A stretch of 64,000 nt of DNA from Desulfoluna sp. (GCF_030145185.1 NZ_JAQYWB010000003.1:62001-126000), one strand, 5' to 3'; shown: positions 4,104 to 62,889, numbered from the stretch's first letter. Notes: a model not told the origin generated them from the sequence alone. Numbers and translations: made by a program.

Positions 4104-4203
4104 GAGAATTCCTCCTCATTGTATTCTGCGTTAGAAACTCGCTTGAGGGGGCCTCTTTCCGTACCGAAAAAGGCCCCCGATCATTCCAGGAAACAGCCGG
4201 AGC

Positions 4204-6528: not shown

Positions 6529-6534
6529 GGTTAT

Positions 6535-7806: not shown

Positions 7807-7928
7807 GCTATCCCTCCATGCATAAATGTTTATAAACTATTAAAACCTAAGTATTTGCTACTCTTTTAGTGTGCCCGGGGGGGACAGGCCTGTGTCTTTG
7901 GTACCCTTCCCTTCGTATCGTGGAGTGC

Positions 7929-7986
7929 GTGTCCACATTCCGTCGGGCTTCCGCGACGTCGCTGAAGCCCGCAAAAATCTGGACAC
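7929..7986. promoter_or_regulatory. Nested symmetric palindrome between aprA and qmoA
   Basis: The outer arms GTGTCCA (7929-7935) and TGGACAC (7980-7986) enclose inner arms CGGGCTTC (7944-7951) and GAAGCCCG (7964-7971), with exactly 8 bases between outer and inner arms on each side. All pairs are perfect. It sits 120-180 bases upstream of qmoA. It could be an operator pair or a two-tier RNA hairpin in the qmo leader. No T-run follows, so it is not a typical terminator. Confidence 0.45.
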
Positions 7987-8057
7987 AACATTTCGGATAA
8001 GGAAAAAATGTTTACGGACCTGAATAAAGTCTGCCCCGTGAAAGAGTATTCTGCATT

Positions 8058-8098
8058 AAAAAAAGCCTCCAGACATCATAAGGGACATCTGGAGGCTT
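8058..8098 (-). terminator. aprA: Terminator of the aprBA operon
   Basis: A perfect 10-bp stem (AGCCTCCAGA 8064-8073, TCTGGAGGCT 8088-8097) is followed on the minus strand by seven T. It begins 33 bases after the aprA stop codon and separates apr from qmo transcription. Confidence 0.93.
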
Positions 8099-8130
8099 AT
8101 TTAAGCTAATTCATCACAGTACCCTTTGAA

Positions 8131-10110: not shown

Positions 10111-10176
10111 TATTATTTCCTCCTAAAAAGAAACTTTTTGTCGTAATCAGAAACACTGGGTAGTGACCAAAAAACC

Positions 10177-10614
10177 TTAGGCAAGCTCAAGGGGCCGCGC
10201 AAGTGTCGCGCCGTCTGCTTCCTCAGTGGCGAGGAGAGCGGAGCTCAGGTCTTTGCCTTTGAGGTCGTTGTAGGCGTTGGCGGAGCCTTCAGAAGTGGTT
10301 CTGATGGGGAACTTAAAGCGTTTGATGACGCCGTTGCGGAACTTACAGGTCCACATGATGTCTTCGGTGCCCATCATGGGCATGATGCTGGAGCCCATGG
10401 GCACGAAGTCAGAGTAACCTCGGACTTCAATGGCCTGAGAAGGGCAGATCTTGACGCAGGAAAAGCATTCCCAGCATTGATCAGGTTCTTGATTGTACGC
10501 TTTCATGGCGGTGGGGTCTAAGACCATCAAGTCGTTGGGGCAGATGTACATACATGCTGTCTTATCCCCGCCTTTGCAACCGTCACATTTTTCAGCGATT
10601 ACATAGCTTGGCAT
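10177..10614 (-). CDS. aprB: Adenylylsulfate reductase beta subunit AprB
   Basis: Iron-sulfur subunit that delivers electrons to the FAD of AprA. The 145-residue protein carries two [4Fe-4S] motifs: CDGCKGGDKTACMYICP (about 10-26), with the long first spacing known from AprB, and CWECFSCVKICP (about 47-58). The C-terminal tail that wraps around AprA in known structures is present. A GGAGG site precedes the ATG. It is the first gene of aprBA. Confidence 0.98.
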   Translation of the reverse strand: MPSYVIAEKCDGCKGGDKTACMYICPNDLMVLDPTAMKAYNQEPDQCWECFSCVKICPSQAIEVRGYSDFVPMGSSIMPMMGTEDIMWTCKFRNGVIKRFKFPIRTTSEGSANAYNDLKGKDLSSALLATEEADGATLARPLELA

Positions 10615-40071: not shown

Positions 40072-40647
40072 TCAGGAGATGGCTACCGCGTCCCAGGCAC
40101 ATGAGAAGGCCGCTTCGAGGCCCTCATCGTCCATGGCGGTGCCTTCTTTCACATGCTGCTTTGCCAGCTGGGTGAGGGGATGGAAGGCGAAGGCCAGGAG
40201 AAGGTCCAGGGAGACCGGTTTGAGAACCCCCGCATCCTGCCCGCGTTCGATGAGGTGGGTGAAGGGGGCAAAGAAGCCCTCTGCATCCTCTTTTTCGACG
40301 GCATCCACGATGGGGGCGTTGCAGAACTGCTCGGCGAACACGAAATGGTCCGGGTAGGCGAGGTAATAGGCGTAGAGGTTTTCCCACATCAGGCGAAAGG
40401 CGTCCCGGATCTCCAGGTCGTCATCGAGGCTGTCAAGAATCGCACGGCTCATTTCCCGTTTGACCTCCACATAAAGAGTGATCAGGAGGTGGTCCTTGTT
40501 CTCGAAGTAGATGTAGATGGTGGCTGGCGAGACGCCGGCTTCCCGAGCGATTTTGGACATGGAGGTGTGGGCCAGGCCATAGGTGTTGATCAGCACCATG
40601 GCGCTGTTGAGGATTGCTTCTCGTTTGCTCTCGTCTTTGGGTCTCAT
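40072..40647 (-). CDS. TetR-family transcriptional regulator (locus 1)
   Basis: A 191-residue repressor-type protein. The N-terminal HTH spans about residues 8-55: REAILNSAMVLINTYGLAHTSMSKIAREAGVSPATIYIYFENKDHLL, closely fitting TetR_N. The C-terminal ligand domain is unassigned. An operator-like palindrome (ATTAAACGA-tcat-TCATTTAAT, 40657-40678) lies directly upstream, so autoregulation is likely. The TGAATGA/TCATTCA-like half sites recall those of fatty-acid-degradation TetR regulators; that is a hint, not proof. It lies 22 bases downstream of the HD-GYP gene but probably has its own promoter. Confidence 0.9.
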   Translation of the reverse strand: MRPKDESKREAILNSAMVLINTYGLAHTSMSKIAREAGVSPATIYIYFENKDHLLITLYVEVKREMSRAILDSLDDDLEIRDAFRLMWENLYAYYLAYPDHFVFAEQFCNAPIVDAVEKEDAEGFFAPFTHLIERGQDAGVLKPVSLDLLLAFAFHPLTQLAKQHVKEGTAMDDEGLEAAFSCAWDAVAIS

Positions 40648-49892: not shown

Positions 49893-50486
49893 CTATTTCG
49901 ACGATGCGATGTTCATGAGACAGAGGAGAATGCCCAGCCCGATGAACGCGCCGGGGGCCTCAACCATGAAGGTGAAGGGTTGAAAAGCGGCTCCGAAAAC
50001 GGTGTGCCCCAGAAAAGTCCCTGCCCCAAGTACTTCCCGAAAGGCGCCGAGAACGGCCAGGGAGAGGGTGAAGCCCATGCCGATGCCCAGGCCGTCGGCC
50101 AGGGAGTGGGCCACGTCGTTCTTGCAGGCAAAGGCCTCAGCCCGCCCCAGAACGATACAGTTCACCACGATCAGGGGGATAAAAATCCCCAGCTTCAGGT
50201 AGAGGGGATAGGTAAAGGCCTGCATCAGAAATTCCACCACGGTGACGAAGGTGGCGATGATGGTGATAAAGCAGGCGATACGGATCTTCTGCGGAATGAC
50301 GTTTCTCAACATGGAGATAAGCATGTTGGAGCAGACCAGCACGAAGGTGGTGGCAACGCCCATGCCGATGCCGTTTTCGACGGATCGGGTAACGGCCAGG
50401 ACCGGGCAGAGGCCCAGCACCAGACGAAATGGGGGAATCTCTTCCCAGAGACCCTTGACGAACTCCTGGGTTAATGACTTGGCCAT
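49893..50486 (-). CDS. rnfE: Rnf electron-transport complex subunit RnfE
   Basis: A 197-residue membrane protein homologous to RnfA and NqrD. It begins MAKSLTQEFVKGLWEEIPPFRLVLGLCPVLAVTRSVENGIGMG and contains IVVNCIVLGRAEAFA, both diagnostic. The conserved Cys in LGLCPVLAVT and IVVNCIVLG are the expected FeS ligands. Its ATG overlaps the rnfG stop (TGATG). It precedes rnfA by 19 bases. Confidence 0.96.
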   Translation of the reverse strand: MAKSLTQEFVKGLWEEIPPFRLVLGLCPVLAVTRSVENGIGMGVATTFVLVCSNMLISMLRNVIPQKIRIACFITIIATFVTVVEFLMQAFTYPLYLKLGIFIPLIVVNCIVLGRAEAFACKNDVAHSLADGLGIGMGFTLSLAVLGAFREVLGAGTFLGHTVFGAAFQPFTFMVEAPGAFIGLGILLCLMNIASSK

Positions 50487-51091
50487 CAGTTGGCTCCTCC
50501 TTGCGATGCGAGGTTGTCCATGCTTTTTGAAAGTTCCGGCTTGAGGCGTTTGTACACCGCGTTGGCTTCGTTCACGGCCACGCAGACAGCGCGGCTGGTG
50601 ATGGTGGCGCCGGAGATCGCGTCAATGCTGCCGCCGTCTTTGCTTACCGCGGCCACCTGATCCACGCCTGAGCCTTCGAACTGGGCGACGAAGGAGGGGT
50701 CCTCCTTGGCTTTGGAGCCAAAGCCCGGGGTCTCGGTGGAGATGGTGACGCCGCTGCCGACGATGGTGTCGTTGTCGAGGTCAAAGGCCACCAGGAGACC
50801 GACGTTTCCGGCAAATCCTTTGCCGAAGGCCTCGAGGGTGACAATGTTTTGATCGCCGATCTTGCCGGGGAAGATGGTGTGTGACACCTCGCCGTCTTTG
50901 ATCTTGAAACGATCGTTCATGGGGTCATTCTCCGCATCCGCGAGGATGGCTCGAATGACCGGCTCTTTTTGGAATTTTAACTGCTGGTACTCGATGCGAT
51001 CCATCGTCAGGCCCCGTACCCCGGCGAGGACGCCGCCGGATACGGCGGTGAACACGGCAAGCACCAGTACCATCTTAAACATGTCGTTCAT
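50486..51091 (-). CDS. rnfG: Rnf electron-transport complex subunit RnfG
   Basis: A 201-residue subunit with one N-terminal membrane anchor (MVLVLAVFTAVSGGVLAGVRG) and an FMN-binding domain outside the membrane. The flavinylation motif is seen as IDAISGATITSRAV (about 158-171), the Thr of SGAT being the attachment point. It overlaps the rnfE start by one base and starts two bases before the rnfD stop ends, as expected for tight coupling. Confidence 0.96.
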   Translation of the reverse strand: MNDMFKMVLVLAVFTAVSGGVLAGVRGLTMDRIEYQQLKFQKEPVIRAILADAENDPMNDRFKIKDGEVSHTIFPGKIGDQNIVTLEAFGKGFAGNVGLLVAFDLDNDTIVGSGVTISTETPGFGSKAKEDPSFVAQFEGSGVDQVAAVSKDGGSIDAISGATITSRAVCVAVNEANAVYKRLKPELSKSMDNLASQGGAN

Positions 51092-51092
51092 T

Positions 51093-52049
51093 TTACACCT
51101 TTCCCAAAGCTTTCGGTCGGATCATGTCGAGAATGGGGTTTGCCAGGTTCATAAGAAGCACGGCAAAAAGAACTCCATCCACCCAGACGCCTTTGTTTCT
51201 GATCAGCACGGTGAGCATGCCGCCCCCGAAGCCGTAGATAAGCATGGGGATGAGGTTCACCGGTGAAGAGGAATCTTCCGTGGCCAGAAAGAAGGCCCCC
51301 ACCAGCGTGTAGCCGGTGAGAAGGTGGAAGACAGGGCCTGCGTAGAGGTCCGGGTTGCTCATGTTGAACAGGAAGGCCGCAACAAAGACCCCGCCCAGAA
51401 AGGAGAGACAGATCTCCCAGCTGCTGATACCCCGGATCATGAGGAAAATGCCGCCGAGGATCAGCCCGGCACCGCAGACAGCGCCGATGCCTCCGGCCTG
51501 GTGGCCAAAGAGAAGCTCCAGGGGGGGGTAAAGGGAGGCGGTCTCTGCACCGAAAAATTTTACATTGATCAGCGGATCCACCATGGACCAGGCCATGTCG
51601 TAATTGACGAGCATGCCGTTAAAGTTCATGAGGTGGGGCCAGGAGACCGTCAGGACCGCTGCCGAAAGGGCCGGTGGGCAAAAGGGATTGCCCCCGATCC
51701 CGCCAAAGGCGATCTTGCTCATGATGATGGCCACAAAGGTGCCGGTGATGACCATCCACCAGGGGGCCGTGGCCGGCAGCAGCATGGAGAGGATCAGGCC
51801 AATCATGGCGGCGTTGCCGTCACCGATGGTGGGCTGCTGCTTCATGAGGGTGTTGGCGGTCAATTCCCAGAAAATGGACGATGCCACTGCCAGAGCAGAC
51901 ACCCCCACTGCCGGAGCCCCGAAGAGGAACCAGCCGGGAATCAGGGCCACCAGGGCGGCGGCCATGATGAGATAGCTGCGTTTCATCACGGTGCAGGCGT
52001 CCCTGTAGAAGGGCGCATGGGATACAATCAGTTTCGTTGAATCAGTCAT
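51093..52049 (-). CDS. rnfD: Rnf electron-transport complex subunit RnfD
   Basis: A 318-residue membrane subunit with eight or more hydrophobic helices. It begins MTDSTKLIVSHAPFYRDACTVMKRSYLIM. GDGNAAMIGLILSMLLP and GGNPFCPPALSAAVL are recognisable. In the position where RnfD/NqrB proteins usually have S/TGAT for covalent FMN, the text here is GAETASLYPPLELL, so the canonical site is not visible. The ATG at 52049 overlaps the rnfC stop by 8 bases; an upstream extension to 52169 lies inside rnfC and is not conserved. Confidence 0.94.
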   Translation of the reverse strand: MTDSTKLIVSHAPFYRDACTVMKRSYLIMAAALVALIPGWFLFGAPAVGVSALAVASSIFWELTANTLMKQQPTIGDGNAAMIGLILSMLLPATAPWWMVITGTFVAIIMSKIAFGGIGGNPFCPPALSAAVLTVSWPHLMNFNGMLVNYDMAWSMVDPLINVKFFGAETASLYPPLELLFGHQAGGIGAVCGAGLILGGIFLMIRGISSWEICLSFLGGVFVAAFLFNMSNPDLYAGPVFHLLTGYTLVGAFFLATEDSSSPVNLIPMLIYGFGGGMLTVLIRNKGVWVDGVLFAVLLMNLANPILDMIRPKALGKV

Positions 52050-53346
52050 TTGAGCCTCCCATTTCAGCACTTTTTTTACTCTCGGCAAGGGTGTGCCGCG
52101 CCAGCATAATCTGCTGGAACAGGGGCATTTTGGCCACGCAGATAAAGCTGCAGAGGCCACATTCCACACAGGCGTCGAGGTCGTACTTTTCCACCGCCTC
52201 TTCGTAGAGACCGTTTTCCAGCATGCGGATCAGAAGGTTCACCGGGATGTTGGCCGGGCAGACGCGCACACACTTTCCACAGTTGATGCAGTAGGTGTCG
52301 GTGAGTCGCGGCATGTTTTCGGGACCATGGCAGAGAATGGCGTCGGTGTCGGGGTCCACGGGAAAATTTGGGGTGTAGACCGAGACGCCGGTGAGGGGGC
52401 CGCCCACGATGAGGTGATCCCGCTTGACAAGTGTTTCTCCCGCTGCCTCAAAGATTTGCGTGATGGGGGTGCCGATGCGGGCATTCACCAACCGGGTCTC
52501 TTTGTTTTTCAGGGTGAGGGTGACGAGTTTTTCCTGGGGAAGGGAGCGGGTACGCAGGGCCTTTCCCGTGGCGGCCACCGCTTCGGCGCTGAAGAGGAGG
52601 AATCCCGATTCTTCGAGGGTTTTCCCCGCTTCAATGGGCTTGCCGGCAAGACGCCCTGCAAGGAGAATGGGGTTGCCGTTGGGGTAAAGGTTTTTAATCC
52701 CCACGGTCTCACATCCGGTATCCTGGGCCTCGGCTTCCAGATATTTGGGAAGGGCCAGAACCACGCGAGCCTTTGGAGCCAGCTCTTTGATGTAGTCCGC
52801 GCCCCGTTTAAAATCGGTTTTGCGGGCCAGAAGAGCATACTGGTTGACGTTGGTCAGGAGGTCTTGCTCCAGTGCGCTTAAGATGACGGTGTGGATGCCG
52901 TCGTTTGCCAGACGGGTGAAGGGGGGCCGTCCCGGAAGTTGGGAAAGAAAGGCCAGGCTTTCTGTTCCTTTGGTGTCTGCCTCCAGGGCGTCTGAAAAGG
53001 CGGGAGATGTTTCCCCCTCTTCGCTGGTCGCAATATTGATCAGGGCGAAGTGACGTCCATAGTTACCGGTGCGGGTTTCCACGCTGGTAATGGTGCCGGA
53101 CACCGGTGCTGAGACGTTTTTTGTCTCTTCATCAAAAAGTCCGTAGAGTGCTCCTCGTTGAACCTCCACCCCTTTTTTCAGGGCAGTTTTCTTTTTATCC
53201 ACGAGGCTTTTCTGGTCGGTACCCACCTGAATCTGGAGGGTGACTTCCCCGGGAAGAGCGGTGTCTACGGGGTCGGGGAGTCCGCCCTTCACCGTCTCGT
53301 AGGGCAGTTTTGCCGCCAGGTAGCCGAAAAACGATCGTCGTATCAT
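52042..53346 (-). CDS. rnfC: Rnf electron-transport complex subunit RnfC
   Basis: Peripheral subunit, expected to carry the FMN/NADH site and two [4Fe-4S] clusters; 434 residues. An SLBB-like segment is in the second third, and the clusters are CINCGKCVRVCP (about 350) and CVECGLCSFIC (about 390). The N-terminus is short and lacks the FKGGIHP text of classical RnfC. The GG-rich NADH-binding stretch is weak. Electron input from cytochrome rather than NADH is possible because the next gene upstream encodes a tetrahaem cytochrome. Confidence 0.93.
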   Translation of the reverse strand: MIRRSFFGYLAAKLPYETVKGGLPDPVDTALPGEVTLQIQVGTDQKSLVDKKKTALKKGVEVQRGALYGLFDEETKNVSAPVSGTITSVETRTGNYGRHFALINIATSEEGETSPAFSDALEADTKGTESLAFLSQLPGRPPFTRLANDGIHTVILSALEQDLLTNVNQYALLARKTDFKRGADYIKELAPKARVVLALPKYLEAEAQDTGCETVGIKNLYPNGNPILLAGRLAGKPIEAGKTLEESGFLLFSAEAVAATGKALRTRSLPQEKLVTLTLKNKETRLVNARIGTPITQIFEAAGETLVKRDHLIVGGPLTGVSVYTPNFPVDPDTDAILCHGPENMPRLTDTYCINCGKCVRVCPANIPVNLLIRMLENGLYEEAVEKYDLDACVECGLCSFICVAKMPLFQQIMLARHTLAESKKSAEMGGSND

Positions 53347-53497
53347 TGTAGTAGTCTCAGTCCCTGTTTGTGATGGTGTTTTTCCCGATGAATCGCACCC
53401 CGGGCTCGGATCTCATTGAGTTCCAGCAGGGTCTTGCGCCGATATGGCATCCTGGATGCAAGGGGGCGTTGGCATCATCAAATGGTGAATTGGCCCG

Positions 53498-53878
53498 TTA
53501 CTTGGGCGTGGCATGGCATGCCGCGCACTCGGCGGGGCCGGCGTCCATCTCTTCGTGGCAACCGATACACTGGGCATGCATGGCGTCGGTTCGACCCATC
53601 ACATCGTCGTCGCCCGAGGCGCCGGGTTCATGGCATTCGCTGCAGGTGTACACTTCATCTCCGTCATCCAGATTGTGGTGACATGAAGCGCAATCCACAT
53701 CGTATTCCCCGATATGGACCTGATGGGTAAAGAGCACGTCCCCTGCGCTTCCTTTGAAGAGCATACGAACTGGTTCTTCAGGCGCTTCGGGCTTCAGCAC
53801 CGTGTAACAAAGCGCTGCTGCGGCCAATAGAACCAATCCCAGTATTACGGCCAGTTTCCTCTCGTTTTCTGGGCGCAT
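53498..53878 (-). CDS. Membrane-anchored tetrahaem cytochrome c3-type protein
   Basis: 126 residues with an N-terminal membrane anchor or signal (LAVILGLVLLAAAALCYTVL, about 9-28) and four CxxCH haem sites: CASCH (about 62), CSECH (about 79), CIGCH (about 103) and CAACH (about 117). Several additional His suggest bis-His ligation as in class III cytochromes c. It is the first gene of the rnfCDGEA operon (151 bases before rnfC). In several Desulfobacterota and methanogens a multihaem cytochrome is part of Rnf and links it to the periplasmic cytochrome pool. Confidence 0.93.
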   Translation of the reverse strand: MRPENERKLAVILGLVLLAAAALCYTVLKPEAPEEPVRMLFKGSAGDVLFTHQVHIGEYDVDCASCHHNLDDGDEVYTCSECHEPGASGDDDVMGRTDAMHAQCIGCHEEMDAGPAECAACHATPK

Positions 53879-54496
53879 CCTAAGTCAACTTCCTCTCTCT
53901 TGCTTGCAGATCTTTAATTGAAATGGCAGGCCCGTTCATTACCGGACCACAGGCGGTCCGGAGTGCGGTGTGCCCATGCGCAAAACATCCCTGTCGTATC
54001 GGCCGGTTCTGCGTCTGTTTTTCCAAAAAGATTCTGAGTGGTTAAATATTGAGTGTGTCCTTCAAGCTCGTATGGCGTGTCTCCACATCCCCTTCTTGTG
54101 TGGATGACATGCTCAGAGCAGCGCTTTTTTTAAAACGCAGTGGTCGCTTTGCGCCCTGCCATAGATCCGAAGGATTACATTTTTTGACCATTTCGGGGAG
54201 AACCCTTTGAATAAAAAAAGAATTCCGAAATACCCGGCGGCCAAGCTACAAATTGTCTCTCAAATTATCGCAAGAACTGTACCAGAAAACCCTCTTTTTG
54301 TGTAGCGATGGATTTTGGAAGGGATGGAGAGATTTGAGCCATAGGCCCTTGGAAAGTACCGATTGACGGCGCATTCGCTCCGTAAATTCGGACTCTACGA
54401 GTCTTCTTTTTGGGAAGGTGTTCACAAGGCAGGAGTGGGCAATTCAGGCAAAAAGTTCCTCAAGAAGGAAGGGGTTGGCGAGATGGGACCGCATTC
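53879..54496. other. Leader region of the cytochrome-rnf operon
   Basis: About 620 bases with no gene supported. A perfect hairpin CCGGACC-acaggc-GGTCCGG lies at 53942-53961, close to the cytochrome start. The promoter was not identified with confidence. Confidence 0.5.
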
Positions 54497-54940
54497 TTAC
54501 ATGAGCGGAACGTCGGGTATAATCCGTGTGATACGAGGGGTGTAGGCTTCGTTTTGAGCAATACGACCTTCGAAAAGACGAATAATGACAAACGCCACAG
54601 CCAGTGCGCCAAAGCCTCCGATTCCAGAGGAGAGGGAGGCGTTGATTTCAAGGGCCGGTGCCAGGGTGTTTCCAACAACCGCTCCTGCAATCATGGAGAA
54701 GACTGGGAATATGTAGGCCAGCAGAGACATTTTGATGAGTGTTCCCGTGGCGATGGAGACCAGAACCCGATCGCCGACACCTGCCTGGGCGTCATTGATG
54801 GCACAGACCTCCATGGCTTTCCCGGAGGCGTGACAGGAGTCCTTGGATGCACACCCTTCGCAGGCGGACGTGCGAATGGTTTCTACCCAGGCGCGACCGT
54901 GGGAGGCTGTTTTGATGACGATACCTTCTTCCTGTCTCAT
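54497..54940 (-). CDS. rseC: SoxR-reducing system / RseC-family membrane protein
   Basis: A 147-residue RseC/MucC-type protein. An N-terminal Cys-rich segment (CEGCASKDSCHASGKAMEVCAIND, about 28-51) is followed by two membrane helices (about 68-92 and 100-122: LLAYIFPVFSMIAGAVVG, GFGALAVAFVIIRLF). RseC is co-encoded with Rnf (Rsx) genes in many bacteria and helps Rsx keep SoxR reduced in E. coli. Here it is transcribed in the same direction as cyt-rnfCDGEA but 618 bases upstream, so it may have its own transcript. Confidence 0.88.
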   Translation of the reverse strand: MRQEEGIVIKTASHGRAWVETIRTSACEGCASKDSCHASGKAMEVCAINDAQAGVGDRVLVSIATGTLIKMSLLAYIFPVFSMIAGAVVGNTLAPALEINASLSSGIGGFGALAVAFVIIRLFEGRIAQNEAYTPRITRIIPDVPLM

Positions 54941-55632
54941 GATGTTTCCTTTCAGGGATCTTGGGTGGCAAGGACCCTACCATATAGGATGCCCACCCAA
55001 AAATCAAAGCCCTGATTTTTTCCTGTGTCTGCTGGGCGACGGGTGGGGGACCGCGCTTGTGTGCGGCCTCGTTTTGACGCCACCAACGGGAAAGACCCGC
55101 ATCGTCGACCGTGACTCTTGGGGTGGAGAGAATAAAAAACGGGGGGATGGTTTTGGATTCTCTATTCAAGGGTCCGGGGCGATGCGGGTCTGTCACCTTT
55201 TATGATCTATGACGGAACATACAACATGTGTGCCAAAGGTGACGCTTGTTTTTTTACCCTGTTATTTCAGGGGGGCAGGCTGTCTGAAAGGGGCCGTGAG
55301 TCTTAAATATCGGACTGAGAGATCAAAAAGTCTGAATTTTTGGAAAGCGGGTGCCGTGGCCCGAAAGACGTGTCCATGAATGGAGGTCGGGCAGGGAACC
55401 TGGGGGGGGCAAAAAAAAAGATGGGTTTGAAAAAGTGGCATAATTTTTGTAAAGAAGAGCATGTACGAAGACGGGTCGCTACCCGTCCATGGAAGGGTGG
55501 GGTCGGAAACGTCACAACGGGATGACTTCCCGGTGAGTCGTGATGGCGCATGGAAACGGTGCCATTCGATGTGACGCCTTTTTTTTCGGAACCACCATTT
55601 GCTGAAATGGTATCGCTGTAAAAAGTCAGGTA

Positions 55633-55661
55633 TTTACATTTTGGGAAACCAATTGTAAAGT
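55633..55661 (+). promoter_or_regulatory. Promoter of rnfB
   Basis: TTTACA (55633-55638), a 17-base spacer and TAAAGT (55656-55661). The leader to rnfB is about 145 bases. Confidence 0.6.
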
Positions 55662-55708
55662 GACCTCGGCCGTCACCAAACGGCGGAGGTCAGGACGTTT
55701 GATCGTCC
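55662..55708 (+). promoter_or_regulatory. Structured leader of rnfB
   Basis: Right at the predicted transcript start, GACCTCGGCCG (55662-55672) pairs with CGGCGGAGGTC (55681-55691) with one mismatch. A second stem GGACG-tttgat-CGTCC (55693-55708) follows. No T-run follows, so a stability or control element is more likely than a terminator. Confidence 0.45.
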
Positions 55709-55811
55709 CCATGGCTTTTGCCACCTTTATCAAGACAGTGTGGCGGGTAATTCAAGGCGACCCGGGGGGTTGCCAGAACCAACACCAAATATCCTTATTA
55801 ATGGGGTAGTT

Positions 55812-56777
55812 ATGACCATTGTTATTCCTTTATTGGTACTTTGTGGGCTGGGAGCTGCCATCGGCCTGCTGCTTGCCCTTGCAGACAAAAAACTAGCCGT
55901 TGAGACCAACCCTCTCATTGATGCGGTTATCGACATTCTTCCGGCGGGTAACTGCGCCAACTGCGGTTATGCCGGATGCGCTCAGTACGCCGAGGCCGTT
56001 GTCGAAAATCCGGCGGTTCGTCCCGACCTTTGTACGCCGGGTGGTAACGAAGCGGCGCAGAAGATTGCGGAGCTGACCGGGAAAAAAGCGGCCGAAATTA
56101 AACCTGTGAAAGCGGTGGCCCGCTGCAAGGGCTGTCCCGAAACCAACAGCACCACCAAATACATCTATAACGGCTTAAACGACTGCGAGGCCGCCGCCAA
56201 CCTTTTCGCCGGGGAAAAGGGCTGTGAGTATGGCTGCCTGGGTCTTGGGAACTGTGTTCGGGCCTGTCCCTTCGATGCCCTTGTGATCGGGGAACTCAAT
56301 GTGCCCGTGGTCAACATCGAGAAATGCGTGGGTTGTGGCCTGTGCGTCACGGCATGTCCCCGTGGCATCATGGCCCTTGTTCCCGATAATGCTGTCAGCG
56401 TGATCGGCTGCCAGAACCGCCAGAAGGGTGGCCAGACCAAGAAGGTGTGCAACGTGGGATGTATCGGCTGCCGCCTCTGCGTGAAAGCCTGCCCCCATGA
56501 TGCCATGAAGGTCGTGGATAACCTTTGCGAGATCGATTACGACAAGTGTCAGTTCTGCGAAGATGCCCCCTGCCTCCAGGTGGACTGTAAGCCAGGGGTG
56601 ATTGCTCCGGGTTACGGCGCTCCCATCAAGTTCCTGACCGGAAAAATCACCGAATTGGCCGGTGCCATCGACGCCGTGGGCAAAGAGGCGGTGAACTTGG
56701 ATGCTGCCGTTGAGGTGACCAAAGACGAGAGCGCACCGAAAGAAGAGAAAAAGGAGACGGCTGAAATCGAAGCCTGA
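55812..56777 (+). CDS. rnfB: Rnf electron-transport complex subunit RnfB (isolated gene)
   Basis: Ferredoxin-accepting subunit; 321 residues. An N-terminal membrane helix (MTIVIPLLVLCGLGAAIGLLLALA), the Fe-S (4Fe4S cluster) domain with GNCANCGYAGCAQYAEAV (about 44-61), then ferredoxin clusters (CLGLGNCVRACP, CVGCGLCVTACP, CNVGCIGCRLCVKACP) and a final Cys-rich part. The last 20 residues are acidic. The ATG at 55812 is used; the frame to 55740 adds no membrane-like sequence. In most genomes rnfB lies in the rnf operon, next to rnfA or rnfC; here it is 2.3 kb from rnfC on the opposite strand with its own promoter and terminator. Confidence 0.95.
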   Translation: MTIVIPLLVLCGLGAAIGLLLALADKKLAVETNPLIDAVIDILPAGNCANCGYAGCAQYAEAVVENPAVRPDLCTPGGNEAAQKIAELTGKKAAEIKPVKAVARCKGCPETNSTTKYIYNGLNDCEAAANLFAGEKGCEYGCLGLGNCVRACPFDALVIGELNVPVVNIEKCVGCGLCVTACPRGIMALVPDNAVSVIGCQNRQKGGQTKKVCNVGCIGCRLCVKACPHDAMKVVDNLCEIDYDKCQFCEDAPCLQVDCKPGVIAPGYGAPIKFLTGKITELAGAIDAVGKEAVNLDAAVEVTKDESAPKEEKKETAEIEA

Positions 56778-56799: not shown

Positions 56800-56842
56800 A
56801 AAAAATGAGGGGCGTCAACCTGCTGGGTTGGCGCCTTTTTTG
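56800..56842 (+). terminator. Terminator between rnfB and etfA
   Basis: GGCGTCAACC (56811-56820) pairs with GGTTGGCGCC (56826-56835) over 10 positions (one G-T) around TGCTG, then six T. An A-run on the other side makes it usable in both directions; the etfA stop codon lies inside it. Confidence 0.9.
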
Positions 56843-57801
56843 TTTTGGAGGGACGGTGCCGAGAGCATCTCCAGGGTGGCTTTCATGAAGGGGAGGAGAT
56901 CGGTTTCGATGATGAGGTCGCTGATGGAGTGGATGGCGGCGTTGGGGTCCCGGTTGACGGAGACCACGGTGGTCTTTTGGGAAATGCTCGCCAGATGCTG
57001 GGTGGAGCCGGAGATTCCAAGGGCGATATAGAGCTCTGCGGAGACCGAGGTGCCGGTGATGCCCACCTGACAGGGGTAGGGCATCCAACCCATGTCCACG
57101 AGGGGGCGGGAGCACGCCTTGGCAGCCTCAGGGAGGGCTTCTGCAAAGTGGTTGAACAGGGGCAGGTTTTCTCGGCTTTCGAGACCTCGTCCCACAGAGA
57201 CCACCACCCGGGCGCCGGAAAGATTCGAAGCGCTCTCATTTCGGGCGTGGGTGGAGAGGATCTGGGTCGGTCCTTTGGAGACAGCGATCCGCTTCAGGGT
57301 CAGGGATCCGGGGGTCACAGCCCGAGGGGCGGAGGGCAGAGTCCCGGGTTGAAGGGTGACCACCGCACCCATTGGGGCTTCCACGTGCAGGCGTAATTTC
57401 CCCCCTCCAGCGGCGCGGTAGAATGTTCCGGAATTCCTGTCAAAGGCCACCACGCCGGAGACAAGGGGGAGCCCCAGGGCAATGGCCAGGGCAGGCGCCA
57501 TATCCATTGATCTGGGCGTGTGGGCAAAGAGAAGATAGCGAACCCCTCGTGTCTTCAGCAGCCCCTTAAATGCCTCTGCCATCTCCATGGCGGAGTGTCC
57601 CTCCTCTGTTCCCATAAGGCCCAGGGTCTCCGCCCCGGATTCCTCTGCAAACCACGGGGCTCCTTTCTCGCTTTGCTTTCCGTGCACCAGAGCCAGGATG
57701 TCGGAGGGTTTTCCGCTTTTCAGGCGCAGGGCCAGTTCCATGAGCTCCATGGAGACGTCGGGCACCTTGTCGCCGGTCATTTCGATGAGAAGTGCAATCA
57801 T
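56815..57801 (-). CDS. etfA: Electron transfer flavoprotein alpha subunit
   Basis: 328 residues. The C-terminal FAD domain is complete: VSVGRGLESRENLPLFNHFAEALPEAAKACSRPLVDMGWMPYPCQVGITGTSVSAELYIALGISGSTQH (about 200-268) and the NRDPNAAIHSISDLIIETDLL end. The N-terminal part is the usual alpha/beta domain. EtfAB accepts electrons from acyl-CoA dehydrogenases. It lies 10 bases after etfB and divergently from an acyl-CoA dehydrogenase gene, a natural partner. Confidence 0.94.
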   Translation of the reverse strand: MIALLIEMTGDKVPDVSMELMELALRLKSGKPSDILALVHGKQSEKGAPWFAEESGAETLGLMGTEEGHSAMEMAEAFKGLLKTRGVRYLLFAHTPRSMDMAPALAIALGLPLVSGVVAFDRNSGTFYRAAGGGKLRLHVEAPMGAVVTLQPGTLPSAPRAVTPGSLTLKRIAVSKGPTQILSTHARNESASNLSGARVVVSVGRGLESRENLPLFNHFAEALPEAAKACSRPLVDMGWMPYPCQVGITGTSVSAELYIALGISGSTQHLASISQKTTVVSVNRDPNAAIHSISDLIIETDLLPFMKATLEMLSAPSLQNKKGANPAG

Positions 57802-57811
57802 GGAAGCTCCT

Positions 57812-58570
57812 TTATGTCTTGAGTACCTGTCGCTCCTGGAGGTAGGCCACGAATTGGGCGGCTTGTTCCTCCGGGGTTCCTGTGATTCTAAGACCTCGAC
57901 CCCGCCGGGTGGGGGGGGAGGAGCCGGTGACAGGCGTTGTATTTGACGTGGCAGGGGCGTCCCTGGAGGGGATGGGGCGGGTGCGCGCTTGGATCATATG
58001 AGAGATATTGGGGTAGCGCGGGATGTTGAACCCCTGCTGGATGGTGACAAGGCAGGGAAAGGGGAGCCTGATGACCTGTCTTGAACCGGCTCCCGCGTCT
58101 CGTGTGGCTTCGAGGGTCTTGTTGTCGGAATGGATGAGAAGCTCTTTGACCACCTGACTGACCCAGGGGATACCCAGCATGGCGGCCAGGGCCGGGCCGG
58201 TCATGCCCTGCATGAGGTCTTCGCTCATGGCACCGCAGACAATGAGATCCGGGGCGAGATCCTTTAGCACCGGGCGAAGGGCCGCTGCGGTGTCGGTGGC
58301 GGAGAGGGGTTCCATCTCTGCCTTGAGGTGAATGGCATTATCAGCGCCCATGCCGAGGCCTCGTCTCAGAGCTTCGGTGACGCGGTCGGGACCGAGGGAG
58401 ATCAGGGTCAAGGTGACCCCCGGCAGGGACTCTTTGATGCGCAGGGCTTCTTCCAGCGCATGTTCATCCAGGCGGTTGATGCGGAACTCCGAGATGTTCT
58501 CCTCCCGGGCCGGTCGAATTTGCGTGGTCCCGAGGCTGTGGATCTGTTTGATCAGAACGGCGATGTGCAT
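57812..58570 (-). CDS. etfB: Electron transfer flavoprotein beta subunit
   Basis: 252 residues with the beta-subunit pattern: VLIKQIHSLGTTQIRP at the start, NRLDEHALEEALRIKE (about 33-47), LSATDTAAALRPVLKDLAPDLIVCGA (about 88-114) and MLGIPWVSQVV. The FxxN-type signature region is somewhat diverged, and the last 45 residues (TSNTTPVTGSSPPTRRGRGLRI...) form a Pro/Thr-rich addition. AAGGA lies 9 bases before the ATG. It is the first gene of etfBA and shares a divergent promoter region with the dehydrogenase operon. Confidence 0.93.
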   Translation of the reverse strand: MHIAVLIKQIHSLGTTQIRPAREENISEFRINRLDEHALEEALRIKESLPGVTLTLISLGPDRVTEALRRGLGMGADNAIHLKAEMEPLSATDTAAALRPVLKDLAPDLIVCGAMSEDLMQGMTGPALAAMLGIPWVSQVVKELLIHSDNKTLEATRDAGAGSRQVIRLPFPCLVTIQQGFNIPRYPNISHMIQARTRPIPSRDAPATSNTTPVTGSSPPTRRGRGLRITGTPEEQAAQFVAYLQERQVLKT

Positions 58571-58634
58571 GGTTCTATCCTTTTTCGTGGGGTTTACAGG
58601 GCTAATGTATCGCGGGGGGCTGAGGGATTCAAGC

Positions 58635-58660
58635 TAAAAAACGAGCGTTCGCTCTTTTTT
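58635..58660. promoter_or_regulatory. Operator-like palindrome in the etf/acd divergent promoter
   Basis: AAAAAACGAGCG-tt-CGCTCTTTTTT has arms of about 11 bases with one mismatch. It ends one base before the -35 of the dehydrogenase promoter. TetR-type symmetry; the tetR gene at 60180 is the obvious candidate for the repressor. Confidence 0.55.
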
Positions 58661-58661
58661 C

Positions 58662-58691
58662 TTGACAGGGCCTCGACATTCTTCTTAGGAT
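58662..58691 (+). promoter_or_regulatory. Promoter of the acyl-CoA dehydrogenase operon
   Basis: A perfect -35 TTGACA (58662-58667), an 18-base spacer and -10 TAGGAT (58686-58691). The start would lie about 100 bases before the gene. Confidence 0.65.
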
Positions 58692-58798
58692 AAAACCCAG
58701 CAGCGATATCCCCGACCGGATATTGGATATGTGGCCGGCGGCGGCCCCTCTTGGAAGGGGTGTGGCCGTCGCCGATCACTCTAATTAAGGAGATCCTC

Positions 58799-60001
58799 AT
58801 GGATTTTGGCGTATCGGAACGCATTGAGACCATCGTCTCAATGATCAACGAGTTTGTGGATCGGGAGCTGATTCCCATGGAGCCGGAGTATCTCGTGCAT
58901 GATTTTAATGAGATGCTGCCGAAGATCCGTGAGAAGCAGGAGATGGTGAAGAAGATGGGGCTCTGGGCCCCCAACTTCCCAACGGAGTGCGGGGGTATGG
59001 GCCTGACGCTGTTAGAACATGGGCTTGTCTCCGAAGCGTTGGGGCGCTCTCCTTTAGGTCATTTTGCCTTCTGGTGCCAGGCCCCGGATGCGGGCAATGT
59101 GGAGATCCTCCACCTGTTCGGCACCGAGGCGCAGAAGGAGCGCTACCTGAACCCCTTGGTGGAAGGCACCATCCGCAGCTGTTTTTCCATGACCGAGGTA
59201 GACATGCCCGGGTCCAACCCGGTGATGCTGGAGACCACGGCGGTCAAAGAGGGTGATGACTACGTCATCAACGGCCACAAATGGTACACCACCAGCGCGG
59301 ACGGGGCGGATTTTGCCATCGTCATGGCCGTGACCAACCCGGAGGCCCCTCGGTATCTTCAGGCCAGCATGATTATTGTCCCCAGCGACACCCCGGGGTT
59401 CAATATCGTGCGCAATATTCCGGTCATGGGCCATGAGGGGAGCGGGTACATGAGCCACGCTGAGATTCTCTATCAGTCGTGCCGGGTGCCCCAGTCGAAC
59501 CTTCTGGGACCTGAAGGCCATGGGTTTGTCATCGCCCAGGAGCGCCTCGGACCGGGTCGTATTCACCACTGCATGCGCTGGTTGGGGATCTGCAGGCGTG
59601 CCTTTGACCTCATGTGCCGGCGGGCCAACGAGCGTGTTATCGCCCCCGATGGAAAAACCCTGGCCACCCGCCAGATCATTCAGGGCTGGATCGCCGAATC
59701 TGCCGCCGAAATGGAGGCGGCCCGTCTCATGACCCTCCATGCGGCCTGGCAGATCGATCAGGTTGGCGCCGCCAAGGCCCGGGACAGCATCAGCATGATC
59801 AAGTTTGTGGTGGCCAATACCATGAACCGCATCGTGGATCGCGCCCTCCAGGTTCACGGAGGCCTCGGCATGACCGACGACACCATCTTGGCCTATTTTT
59901 ATCGCCATGAACGTGCCGCCCGCATCTACGACGGTGCCGACGAGGTCCATAAAACCTCCCTGGCCAAACGGATCCTGCGAAGCTATGAGGGCGGGAAGTG
60001 A
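58799..60001 (+). CDS. ACAD10/11-type acyl-CoA dehydrogenase
   Basis: A 400-residue FAD acyl-CoA dehydrogenase. FAD-binding segments: CFSMTEVDMPGSNP (about 138-151), WYTTSADGADFAIVM (about 160-175), RALQVHGGLGMTDD (about 350-363). Near the C-terminus it reads RIYDGADEVHKTSLAKRIL: where classical enzymes have the catalytic Glu in YEG, this has Asp in YDGADEVH, the DGxDEVH text typical of ACAD10/11 and LvaC. AAGGAG is 6 bases before ATG 58799; the longer frame from 58751 overlaps the promoter leader. It is followed by tetR, a kinase-like gene and an SDR. A role in 4-hydroxyacyl-CoA breakdown is inferred. Confidence 0.92.
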   Translation: MDFGVSERIETIVSMINEFVDRELIPMEPEYLVHDFNEMLPKIREKQEMVKKMGLWAPNFPTECGGMGLTLLEHGLVSEALGRSPLGHFAFWCQAPDAGNVEILHLFGTEAQKERYLNPLVEGTIRSCFSMTEVDMPGSNPVMLETTAVKEGDDYVINGHKWYTTSADGADFAIVMAVTNPEAPRYLQASMIIVPSDTPGFNIVRNIPVMGHEGSGYMSHAEILYQSCRVPQSNLLGPEGHGFVIAQERLGPGRIHHCMRWLGICRRAFDLMCRRANERVIAPDGKTLATRQIIQGWIAESAAEMEAARLMTLHAAWQIDQVGAAKARDSISMIKFVVANTMNRIVDRALQVHGGLGMTDDTILAYFYRHERAARIYDGADEVHKTSLAKRILRSYEGGK

Positions 60002-60124
60002 GGTAGACAGCCTCTGTGGAACGAAAAGGTCCTCCGATGACAAGGGGGTAAGAAAGGGGTGCGCAAGGGTACCCTTATGTGACGTGTTTTTAAGACCTGT
60101 TTGTTAAATTTTTCAAACGTTTAT

Positions 60125-60145
60125 CCCCCGGCAGGGCCGCCGGAG
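60125..60145 (+). repeat. 21-bp direct repeat, left of tetR
   Basis: A GC-rich unit starting CCCCCGGCAGGGCC and ending GCCGGAG, identical to 60881-60901. It continues into GGCATAAGCTGAATAG, a decayed end of the MITE family. Confidence 0.85.
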
Positions 60146-60179
60146 GCATAAGCTGAATAGATAAGGATAAGAAAAAGAC

Positions 60180-60869
60180 GTGACAGACAAAAGTTTTGAC
60201 GCATTTAAAAAAAGGTATGAGATCTCCCGGGAGGAGATGACCCGGGAGTTGTTCCGGGAAAACGCCGAATCGATTCGCGTGAAAAAAGAGGCGACGGCGG
60301 TGAGGAATCTGCAGCGGATCATCGAGGCCGTGTTCACCATCTCCAAGGTGAAGGGGTTCCAGGCCATGAGCATGCGGGACCTCTGCAACGAGAGCGGCCT
60401 CTCCATGGGGGGGCTTTACGGTTATATCAAAGGGAAAGAAGAGCTGCTGGCTCTGATTCAGGGTCAGGGACGTCGGCTCGTGGAACGGTTTCTGCTGGAG
60501 AGCCTCACAGACCTTACGGATCCGTTTGAAAAACTTGATGCCCTGATTCGGGTTCATATCTACCTGAGTGAAGTGGCCCGTCCCTGGTTTTTTTTCAACT
60601 TTATGGAATCGAGGCATCTCGGAAAAGAGGACCTCACCCAGGCTCTGATCATGGAGGCCGCAACCGAGAAGGCCCTTGCCGATCTGATCGAGGAGGGAAT
60701 CGCCCTGAAAACCTTCGCCCCTTGTGATGCAGCGCTCCTGGCCGGTCTGATCAAATCCATGCAGCAGGACTGGTACCTGAAACGCTGGAAGTTCAGAAAA
60801 CGGAAGGTCACCGTGGAACGGTATGCCGATGCCGTGATCGAGATGGCCTTTTTTCGGCTGGCTTTGTAG
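60180..60869 (+). CDS. TetR-family regulator of the acyl-CoA dehydrogenase operon
   Basis: 229 residues, with an unusual 45-residue N-terminal helical extension before the HTH. The TetR_N domain spans about 45-90: ATAVRNLQRIIEAVFTISKVKGFQAMSMRDLCNESGLSMGGLYGYIKGKEELLALI. The C-terminal domain is all-helical with an unknown ligand, plausibly an acyl-CoA. It starts with GTG 60180, with AAGGA about 11 bases before. It sits between the dehydrogenase and kinase genes, flanked by identical 21-bp direct repeats (60125 and 60881). Confidence 0.88.
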   Translation: MTDKSFDAFKKRYEISREEMTRELFRENAESIRVKKEATAVRNLQRIIEAVFTISKVKGFQAMSMRDLCNESGLSMGGLYGYIKGKEELLALIQGQGRRLVERFLLESLTDLTDPFEKLDALIRVHIYLSEVARPWFFFNFMESRHLGKEDLTQALIMEAATEKALADLIEEGIALKTFAPCDAALLAGLIKSMQQDWYLKRWKFRKRKVTVERYADAVIEMAFFRLAL

Positions 60870-60880
60870 ACAAAGATTGC

Positions 60881-60901
60881 CCCCCGGCAGGGCCGCCGGA
60901 G
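60881..60901 (+). repeat. 21-bp direct repeat, right of tetR
   Basis: Exact copy of 60125-60145, followed by ACTGTTTTTTATG. It could fold into a weak CCGGC/GCCGG terminator-like hairpin. Confidence 0.85.
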
Positions 60902-60947
60902 ACTGTTTTTTATGTTCGCCTCATTCAAACTTGGAAAAGGAGAGCAC

Positions 60948-62009
60948 ATGAAGGATACGGCACAAACCATTCGTGAAGGAGAGGGCCTGGACGAGGGCGC
61001 ACTGTATGACTGTCTGATGTCCAGCATTCCGGGGCTGTCGGGTCCCATGACCCTGACTCAGTTTCCAAGCGGGTTTTCCAACCTCACCTATCTTGTCCGG
61101 GTGGGGGAAAAAGAGATGGTGCTCCGCCGGCCTCCTTTCGGGGCCAGGATCAAGAGTGCCCATGACATGGGGCGTGAGTACCGCATCCTGAGTGCCTTAA
61201 GACCCCACTACCCTTACTGCCCCGAGCCCCTTTACTTTACGGAAGACCCAGAGGTGATGGGCTGCCCCTTTTACGTCATGGAGCGTATGGAGGGGATTAT
61301 CCTGAGAAAGGAGCTTCCCGAGGATCTCTCCTACACCCCGGCGCAGGCAAAAACCCTTTGCGAAACACTTTTAGATGTTCAGGTGGCCCTTCACAGCATT
61401 GATGTGGAAAAGGCGGGCCTTGGTTTTTTGGGGAAACCCGAAGGCTACGTCAAGCGGCAGGTGGAGGGGTGGAGCAAGCGCTACCGCAATGCCCGAACCG
61501 AGGATGCCCCCGATTTCGAGGCGGTGATGGGGTGGCTGGTGGAGAAGATGCCGGTGGACACGGCCCGGCCTACCCTCGTGCATAACGACTACAAATTTGA
61601 CAACATTGTCCTGGCCGAGGCCAATCCCATGGAGATCATCGGGGTGCTGGATTGGGAGATGGCCACCTATGGCGATCCCCTCATGGACCTGGGCAACTCT
61701 CTGGCCTACTGGGTGGAGAAGGGCGATCCGGAGGAGATGCAGATGATGCGCCTCATGCCCACCGATATGGAGGGGGCGCTGACTCGGGCGGAGCTGGTGG
61801 CACGCTACGGACGGCTGACGGGTCTCGATGTCTCAGGGTTTGATTACTATCTTTGCTTTGGTTTGTTTCGCCTGGCCGTCATCGCCCAGCAGATCTACCA
61901 GCGCTACCATCAAGGGCTGACACAGGACAAACGTTTTGCCATGTTGATTTTTGGCGTTCAGATCCTGGAGCGGGCGGCACTTTCTGTGATCGAGTCCTCG
62001 CACCTGTAA
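60948..62009 (+). CDS. APH-like phosphotransferase (ACAD10/11 and LvaA type)
   Basis: Aminoglycoside-phosphotransferase-fold kinase of 353 residues, probably acting on a hydroxyacyl-CoA. The catalytic loop is LVHNDYKFDNIV (HxD...N, about 208-219) and the metal-binding motif GVLDWEMATYGDPLMDLG (about 231-248). The N-terminal glycine loop region is FPSGFSNLTYLVRV. This exact style (LDWEMATxGDPLxDL) is shared with the N-terminal kinase domain of ACAD11 and with LvaA of the levulinate pathway, which phosphorylates 4-hydroxyacyl-CoA. AAGGAG 5 bases before ATG 60948 sets the start. Confidence 0.9.
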   Translation: MKDTAQTIREGEGLDEGALYDCLMSSIPGLSGPMTLTQFPSGFSNLTYLVRVGEKEMVLRRPPFGARIKSAHDMGREYRILSALRPHYPYCPEPLYFTEDPEVMGCPFYVMERMEGIILRKELPEDLSYTPAQAKTLCETLLDVQVALHSIDVEKAGLGFLGKPEGYVKRQVEGWSKRYRNARTEDAPDFEAVMGWLVEKMPVDTARPTLVHNDYKFDNIVLAEANPMEIIGVLDWEMATYGDPLMDLGNSLAYWVEKGDPEEMQMMRLMPTDMEGALTRAELVARYGRLTGLDVSGFDYYLCFGLFRLAVIAQQIYQRYHQGLTQDKRFAMLIFGVQILERAALSVIESSHL

Positions 62010-62127
62010 TAGAATTTTTTTTTAACAGAGTCGTTTTACATTCCAGTGACTGATCTCTACCGGTTGCCCCACGGGCGCTGGCCGTTTATGCATTAAATCA
62101 GGAATCAATGGATCATGGGAGGTAGGT

Positions 62128-62889
62128 ATGGCTGTATCTGTTTCGCTGAAGGGAAAAGTTGCGATTGTGACCGGCGCAAGTCGGGGGATTGGGGAGTCCA
62201 TCGCCCTGTTGTTGGCCGAGGCCGAGGCCGAAGTGGTGCTGGTGAGTCGGAAGATCGAGGGACTTGAAGAGGTCAAGGCAAAGATTGAAGCGGCCGGGGG
62301 CAAGGCCCATGCCGTGGCCTGCAACACGGGACATCTCGATCAGATCGAGCATCTGATGGGCGAGGTGAAGCGGCTCTGTGGGCGGTTGGATATTCTGGTG
62401 AATAACGCGGCAGCCAACCCTCATTTCGGCTTTATGATGGATGCCGAGGAGTGGGCCTGGGACAAAATTTTTGACGTGAACCTTAAAGGTCCTTTTTTTA
62501 TGATTCAGCATGGGTCGCGGCTGATGAAGGAAAATGGCGGGGGGTCCATCGTAAATGTTGCCTCAGTGAACGGCATCCGGCCCGCATTTTTTCAAGGGAT
62601 CTACTCGGTGAGCAAAGCGGGCATGATCGCCATGACCCTAGCCCTGGCCAAGGAGATGGCCGCCGATAAGATTCGTGTGAACTCCCTGCTGCCGGGACTC
62701 ACCGATACCAAATTTGCCTCAGCCATTACACAGGATGAGGGGATCATGAAGCAGGTGACTCAGCAGATCCCTGCAGGGCGTGTGGCTGAGCCTTCCGAGA
62801 TGGCCGGTGCCGTTCTTTATCTCGTCTCCGATGCGGCCTCCTATGTGACGGGCAGTGCCCTGGTTGTGGATGGAGGAATGCTCGCCTGA
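62128..62889 (+). CDS. Short-chain dehydrogenase/reductase of the dehydrogenase operon
   Basis: 253 residues with complete catalytic and cofactor motifs: TGASRGIGES (about 15-24), NNAAANP (about 91), VNVASVNG (about 142) and IYSVSKAGM (YxxxK, about 157-161). The VDGGMLA end is typical for the FabG/DHRS4 shape. GGAGGT lies 4 bases before ATG. It is the last gene of acd-tetR-aph-sdr, followed by a terminator. In the Lva pathway an SDR (LvaD) assists conversion to the 3-hydroxy form; the same role here is an inference from gene context only. Confidence 0.9.
   Translation: MAVSVSLKGKVAIVTGASRGIGESIALLLAEAEAEVVLVSRKIEGLEEVKAKIEAAGGKAHAVACNTGHLDQIEHLMGEVKRLCGRLDILVNNAAANPHFGFMMDAEEWAWDKIFDVNLKGPFFMIQHGSRLMKENGGGSIVNVASVNGIRPAFFQGIYSVSKAGMIAMTLALAKEMAADKIRVNSLLPGLTDTKFASAITQDEGIMKQVTQQIPAGRVAEPSEMAGAVLYLVSDAASYVTGSALVVDGGMLA

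Follow-up and report, generated by a model that had tools for sequence, protein, structure and literature searches.

A gene unit, probably under TetR control, predicted to bring 4-hydroxyacyl-CoAs into beta-oxidation, with a dedicated electron transfer flavoprotein, in the sulfate reducer Desulfoluna sp. and its relatives

Here we report the analysis of a gene cluster in a 64,000-nucleotide stretch of the genome of Desulfoluna sp. (GCF_030145185.1, NZ_JAQYWB010000003.1:62001-126000), hereafter called the window. Six genes fill positions 56815-62889: etfA and etfB, encoding the subunits of an electron transfer flavoprotein (ETF; the complex is called EtfAB), lie on the minus strand, followed on the plus strand by genes for an acyl-coenzyme A (acyl-CoA) dehydrogenase-like protein, a TetR-family regulator, a kinase, and a short-chain dehydrogenase/reductase (SDR) (Table 1). 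We propose, with a probability of about 0.6, that the locus is a unit that brings 4-hydroxyacyl-CoAs into beta-oxidation, and that the same dehydrogenase most likely has EtfAB as its redox partner. We observed a residue signature, a distinct phylogenetic position, gene co-occurrence, a dedicated EtfB clade, and a shared operator, and we infer which substrate is used, how the phosphate reacts, and that EtfAB contacts the dehydrogenase. An earlier note on this DNA, which had described a split ACAD10/11-like cluster with divergent etfBA, a kinase two genes beyond the dehydrogenase and an SDR next to it, was accurate in its gene positions; the gene that it left unnamed, between the dehydrogenase and the kinase, encodes the TetR regulator.

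The dehydrogenase carries the sequence YDGADEVHK, in agreement with the DGxDEVH text and the aspartate in place of the catalytic glutamate that the note had described. This aspartate, D378, is invariant within the dehydrogenase clade, whereas the classical enzymes have glutamate there. The closest solved relative by sequence is ACAD11 (PDB 2wbi, 4.8e-87; 8v3u, 8.5e-85), to which the protein is 42% identical, and a fold search with a model of the dehydrogenase (mean predicted local distance difference test score of 78) gives Mycobacterium abscessus 4hr3 and ACAD11 as the nearest folds. In ACAD11, R626, H634, and R637 contact the 4-phosphate of the substrate and D753 is the catalytic base; in mutants of these four residues turnover halts at the phospho-intermediate (PMC12440821). 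The alignment places R249, H257, R260, and D378 of the window protein at these positions and R254 at that of ACAD11 R631, and the full set filling the 4-phosphate positions is present in 112 of 113 close homologues. The genome encodes five further acyl-CoA dehydrogenase-like proteins, only 25-31% identical to that of the window, and none of them has this residue set.

In a maximum-likelihood tree of 61 proteins, the window-type dehydrogenases (support 98/96) and an ACAD11-type clade (100/99), comprising ACAD11, 4hr3, and bacterial homologues 50-59% identical to ACAD11, are sister groups, jointly separated from the classical enzymes at 100/100. The grouping with ordinary beta-oxidation dehydrogenases, which the earlier note had named as the outcome opposed to its proposal, did not occur. 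The window protein itself falls outside the ACAD11-type clade in this tree, in which LvaC of Pseudomonas putida was not included; the published identity of LvaC, 56% (PMC11342911), lies within the 50-59% range of the bacterial ACAD11 homologues. Because the two sister clades split jointly from the classical enzymes, the dehydrogenase probably works like LvaC and ACAD10/11, though it is not a member of their clade.

The kinase contains LDWEMATYGDPL, the LDWEMATxGDPL-type motif recognized in the earlier note. Its match to the ACAD11 kinase domain (5e-45) is exceeded by that to PDB 9o56 (7e-93), an unnamed 'aminoglycoside phosphotransferase' for which no paper was found in a literature search. 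D214 and N219 correspond to the catalytic D220 and N225 of ACAD11, and R76 and R170 to its CoA-contacting R86 and R176, within an overall identity of 31% to the ACAD11 kinase. In the kinase tree, the window protein belongs to a branch (100/100) that also holds 9o56 and the cluster kinases of Azospirillum, Streptomyces, Pseudoalteromonas, and Deinococcus, and that is separate from the branch of ACAD11 and 3dxp. Thus, the description as a split ACAD10/11 was too simple, the dehydrogenase belonging to a sister clade and the kinase to a different APH branch. In the four aerobic genera just named, kinases of this branch adjoin ACAD11-type dehydrogenases, so that both dehydrogenase clades are served by kinases of a single branch, in support of a shared chemistry. 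Members of the window branch are 29-33% identical to the ACAD10/11 kinase and those of the other branch 40-48%; the reported 29% identity of LvaA (PMC11342911), a protein absent from the tree, would therefore fit the window branch better.

Across 116 related genomes, 37 encode both the dehydrogenase and the kinase, five the dehydrogenase alone, none the kinase alone, and 74 neither (Fisher test, 3e-25, kinship among genomes ignored), so the kinase accompanies the dehydrogenase in 37 of 42 relatives. Given the residue signature, the phylogeny, and this co-occurrence, we consider it likely that the two proteins are a 4-hydroxyacyl-CoA kinase and a phosphate-eliminating dehydrogenase, as the earlier note had proposed by analogy with the levulinate pathway.

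Several arrangements of these two genes in other genomes were observed. In one relative the cluster has two kinase genes in tandem (L060:8555-10802), with identities of 51% and 55% to that of the window; they may act on substrates that differ in chain length or stereochemistry. Another (G072, L068:7971-10324) has an adjacent pair of a 42% identical dehydrogenase and an ACAD11-branch kinase beside the window-type pair, and thus both kinds in one genome. The window-type dehydrogenase occurs alone in Acidimicrobiia of the Actinomycetota (L142-L143, L149-L152, L154-L156), with no kinase, TetR, etf gene, or operator at these loci; in three such genomes that were checked, kinases elsewhere are only 32-39% identical. 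An apparent fused kinase-dehydrogenase in an 854-amino-acid frame (L021/L050) was rejected, since the extra N-terminal part resembles a composition-biased overlap and a separate dehydrogenase gene and a TetR gene are present upstream.

The EtfB proteins of the cluster form a single clade (100/98), outside which fall the other EtfB of the genome, the EtfB of five relatives, and the solved structures. A profile of the cluster EtfB splits its matches sharply into those of at least 246 bits and those of at most 215 bits, and 35 of the 36 genomes above this gap carry the dehydrogenase, some of them with etfB on another contig. Seven genomes with the dehydrogenase are below the gap, among which G032 and G091 have a diverged cluster EtfB and G041 a broken-looking one. 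One relative was seen with a dedicated-type EtfB of 253.8 bits (G017:C1:118688-119449) and no window-type dehydrogenase. Where the flanks of named loci were long enough, etfB lies within about 3 kb of the dehydrogenase gene in 38 of 59, on the opposite strand in 37 of them, in Thermodesulfobacteriota, Myxococcota-labelled deltas, Spirochaetota, SAR324, and others. The alignment with human ETF indicates conservation of the flavin adenine dinucleotide (FAD) site residues of EtfA (SR, T of VGITG, QH, and N). As in beta-oxidation ETFs, these residues and the hydrophobic position of the EtfB recognition loop are retained; unlike in them, SED replaces the canonical AIDxDxxQ adenine-nucleotide motif of EtfB, which forms its own clade. 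The DGDTAQVG-type motif of bifurcating EtfB, taken from alignments of LctB, CarD, and the Acidaminococcus protein, was not found in the cluster clade, which reads SED-MQ--TG there.

The divergent intergenic region of the cluster holds a palindrome, AACGAGCGTTCGCT, with the consensus A[AG]CGA[AG]CG[TC]TCG[TC]T across the corresponding regions of relatives. The degenerate pattern RRCGARCGYTCGYY has a single match in the whole 5.8-Mb genome, and each of the 47 matches across 113 related loci (1.48 Mb) precedes the dehydrogenase gene by no more than 1.7 kb. With one mismatch allowed, 48 of the 55 loci that have a site also have the TetR gene, compared with 7 of the 26 that lack one (p=1e-7, ignoring kinship). 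The -35 box of the dehydrogenase operon begins a few bases past the palindrome, with similar spacing in many relatives, and in many relatives the palindrome sits between two divergent -35-like boxes. The operator core sequence had no match in a literature search. The TetR protein of the cluster probably binds this site; since the palindrome is confined to this intergenic region and tracks the TetR gene, etfBA and the dehydrogenase operon are predicted to be one regulon, probably with one target site.

ACAD10/11 catalyse a redox-neutral reaction that proceeds without an electron acceptor (PMC11342911, PMC12440821), and etfBA was for this reason first expected to be incidental. However, synteny, the EtfB clade, co-occurrence, and shared regulation together indicate that etfBA is a conserved, dedicated, and probably co-regulated part of the unit. 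The earlier hint at EtfAB therefore stands as to a dedicated and probably co-regulated gene pair, but the coupling that it suggested cannot be assumed. A direct partnership of EtfAB with the dehydrogenase is favoured because only 2 of 80 loci contain a second dehydrogenase-like gene, which leaves EtfAB with no other regular partner nearby.

In the proposed pathway, a CoA ligase encoded elsewhere would activate a 4-hydroxy acid, or a 4-oxo acid via the SDR, and the kinase would use adenosine triphosphate (ATP) to phosphorylate the 4-hydroxyl of the CoA ester. D378 would then take the alpha proton as a hydride passes to the FAD of the dehydrogenase, and the R249/H257/R260 pocket would hold and then expel the 4-phosphate, yielding an enoyl-CoA for beta-oxidation. 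EtfAB would take electrons in net turnover, or re-oxidize FADH2 left by aborted cycles, a rescue in which oxygen could serve in aerobes but not here. In a more tentative redox-open version, which we consider rather unlikely, the dehydrogenase of these mostly anaerobic lineages would oxidize the 4-phosphoacyl-CoA and expel phosphate to give a 2,4-dienoyl-CoA, with the electrons passing to the dedicated EtfAB and not back to the product, and an SDR or another reductase finishing the conversion.

Several points weigh against the proposed reading. The acceptor-free reaction of ACAD10/11 means that such a partner is not chemically required; 4 of the 42 genomes with the dehydrogenase have no recognizable dedicated EtfB, and the Actinomycetota copies have neither kinase nor etf nearby. 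The window type retains a GG[ML]GL loop close to where ETF docks, which is altered in ACAD11-type enzymes, but its support for docking is weak, since the ETF-pocket residues are reported to be largely conserved in all acyl-CoA dehydrogenases (PMC11153573). LvaA and LvaC themselves are placed by their published identities and not in the trees, the Fisher p-values take no account of kinship, and the substrate and activity of the pair are predictions.

The alternative that survives best, although we regard it as rather unlikely, is that the kinase and the dehydrogenase are a redox-neutral pair like LvaA and LvaC, with the co-regulated EtfAB serving only other acyl-CoA dehydrogenases in later rounds of beta-oxidation of the same substrate. 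The ability of ACAD10/11 to work without an acceptor (PMC11342911, PMC12440821) speaks for it, as do the clusters of some relatives that hold a 3-hydroxyacyl-CoA dehydrogenase, a thiolase, or an enoyl-CoA hydratase, as a whole beta-oxidation unit would. Yet no second acyl-CoA dehydrogenase is regularly present in the cluster, the special EtfB clade is tied to the dehydrogenase even when the genes are not adjacent, and the genome already has two further EtfBA pairs, one of them adjoining an acyl-CoA dehydrogenase-like gene.

It is less likely still that the pair acts by the same phosphorylate-and-eliminate logic on another hydroxylated CoA ester, such as a branched, cyclic, or 5-hydroxy compound. 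Residue comparisons cover only the chemistry-bearing positions, the dehydrogenase clade has long been separate from the ACAD11 type, as its identity to ACAD11 suggests, and the kinase branch is not that of ACAD11; against this, the residues contacting the 4-phosphate are invariant, and aerobes combine kinases of this branch with ACAD11-type dehydrogenases. It is very improbable that the dehydrogenase and EtfAB serve ordinary beta-oxidation and that the kinase next to them is unrelated, an idea suggested by the dehydrogenase fold and by the common proximity of etf and acyl-CoA dehydrogenase genes. This reading was rejected on the residue signature (the Asp base and the R/H/R phosphate pocket) and the tree position as sister to the ACAD11 type, with the strict kinase co-occurrence also against it.

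With the LvaA and LvaC proteins of P. putida the proposed unit would share a separate kinase and dehydrogenase-like protein and an expected 4-phosphoacyl-CoA intermediate. It differs from the lva operon in having a TetR regulator instead of LvaR, a dedicated EtfAB, and a dehydrogenase sister to the clade in which LvaC is expected, and in the lack of a ligase gene: no LvaE-like acyl-CoA synthetase gene lies beside the cluster, as the earlier note had stated, although the genome has 17 AMP-binding matches at other places. LvaB is needed for LvaA activity; we take it to be a DUF6285 protein, and a DUF6285 search of the window genome gave no match. With mammalian ACAD10 and ACAD11 the window proteins share all dehydrogenase residues shown to matter and the modelled kinase contacts, but they are two separate proteins, both outside the ACAD11 clades. 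The widespread bacterial dehydrogenase-SDR-kinase-histidine phosphatase clusters, as in Azospirillum, Streptomyces, and Pseudoalteromonas have the kinase branch and the SDR in common with the window, and differ in their ACAD11-type dehydrogenases and in having no etf gene nearby.

The histidine phosphatase of those clusters is also present in most relatives of the window cluster, between etfB and the dehydrogenase gene (e.g., L033:5868-6560 and the cluster 4 genes of L031-L061). It has been lost from the window, being missing at 58571-58798 and in the same-genus genome G002, and a search of the window genome gave no homologue. By analogy with the HAD domain of ACAD10, reported to restrain the ACAD10 kinase (PMC11342911), the phosphatase may limit the build-up of phosphoacyl-CoA, which we offer as a suggestion only. 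The SDR, conserved in many clusters, could possibly act on a 4-oxoacyl-CoA, a 3-hydroxyacyl-CoA, or a dienoyl-CoA.

Table 1. Features of the cluster (window coordinates).
Feature	Position	Strand	Evidence
etfA, electron transfer flavoprotein alpha subunit	56815..57801	-	Pfam ETF_alpha 6.9e-28; best PDB match human ETF
etfB, beta subunit of the dedicated clade, with SED motif and PRYP recognition loop	57812..58570	-	Pfam ETF 1.7e-31, tree, alignment, co-occurrence
Operator palindrome AACGAGCGTTCGCT between the divergent promoters, candidate TetR site	58640..58653	.	Pattern scans of genome and loci, TetR co-occurrence
Promoter-like TTGACA-18-TAGGAT for the dehydrogenase operon	58662..58691	+	Consensus scan, 10/12
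Acyl-CoA dehydrogenase-like enzyme, probably 4-phosphoacyl-CoA phosphate-eliminating	58799..60001	+	Pfam Acyl-CoA_dh, ACAD11 best PDB match, signature, tree, fold search
RLGPGRIHHCMR, residues 249-260, equivalents of ACAD11 R626, R631, H634, R637	59543..59578	+	Alignment; residue roles from PMC12440821
Codon of Asp378, at the position of the ACAD11 catalytic base D753 (classical enzymes have Glu)	59930..59932	+	Alignment
TetR-family regulator (TetR_N, TetR_C_24), candidate operator binder	60180..60869	+	Pfam; conserved in cluster; co-occurs with operator
APH-fold kinase, probable 4-hydroxyacyl-CoA kinase	60948..62009	+	Pfam APH 2.6e-51, PDB matches, residue table, tree
Short-chain dehydrogenase/reductase, conserved in many clusters	62128..62889	+	NCBIfam PRK07035 377.9 bits (cut-off 373); synteny

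The rest of the window places the cluster in its host. AprA, AprB, and QmoC are encoded there above the curated NCBIfam cut-offs, and the sulfate-reducer label of the earlier note is fair for this reason; the genes lie at 2931-10614 on the minus strand as aprBA followed by qmoABC-like genes, the middle two of which match HdrA-type proteins, as QmoA and QmoB do. At 49893-56777 are the Rnf genes rnfC, D, G, and E, a small cytochrome-like gene (53498-53878), and, apart from the Rnf genes and on the opposite strand, an RnfB-like gene (55740-56777) that adjoins etfA, an adjacency also seen in two same-genus genomes. A second TetR-type regulator (40072-40647, minus strand), similar to the fatty-acid regulator FadR, is unconnected to the cluster. 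Among the titles and abstracts listed in a literature search for anaerobic use of levulinate by sulfate reducers, none was relevant.

The etfBA genes and the dehydrogenase-tetR-kinase-SDR genes look like two divergent operons that form a single unit under TetR control, and the regulon appears to span sulfate reducers, spirochaetes, and related, mostly anaerobic lineages. The logic of a kinase followed by an eliminase is known; what is new is that several such lineages combine a sister clade of the enzyme with a dedicated subfamily of EtfAB and a single-site regulator. The reaction of ACAD10/11 and LvaC was described only in 2017-2025, and the mechanism of redox-neutral FAD use remains unclear (PMC12440821); the tie to EtfAB raises a specific doubt about such a mechanism here. 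If EtfAB accepts electrons from the dehydrogenase, the transient FADH2 step would become visible, a natural experiment, and if the redox-open version is true, these bacteria would run an electron-yielding form of the ACAD10/11 reaction, served by a separate EtfAB subfamily. The single-site regulator could be used as a marker or a sensor, and the unit as a whole predicts an oxygen-independent route for 4-hydroxy acids in sulfate reducers and spirochaetes.

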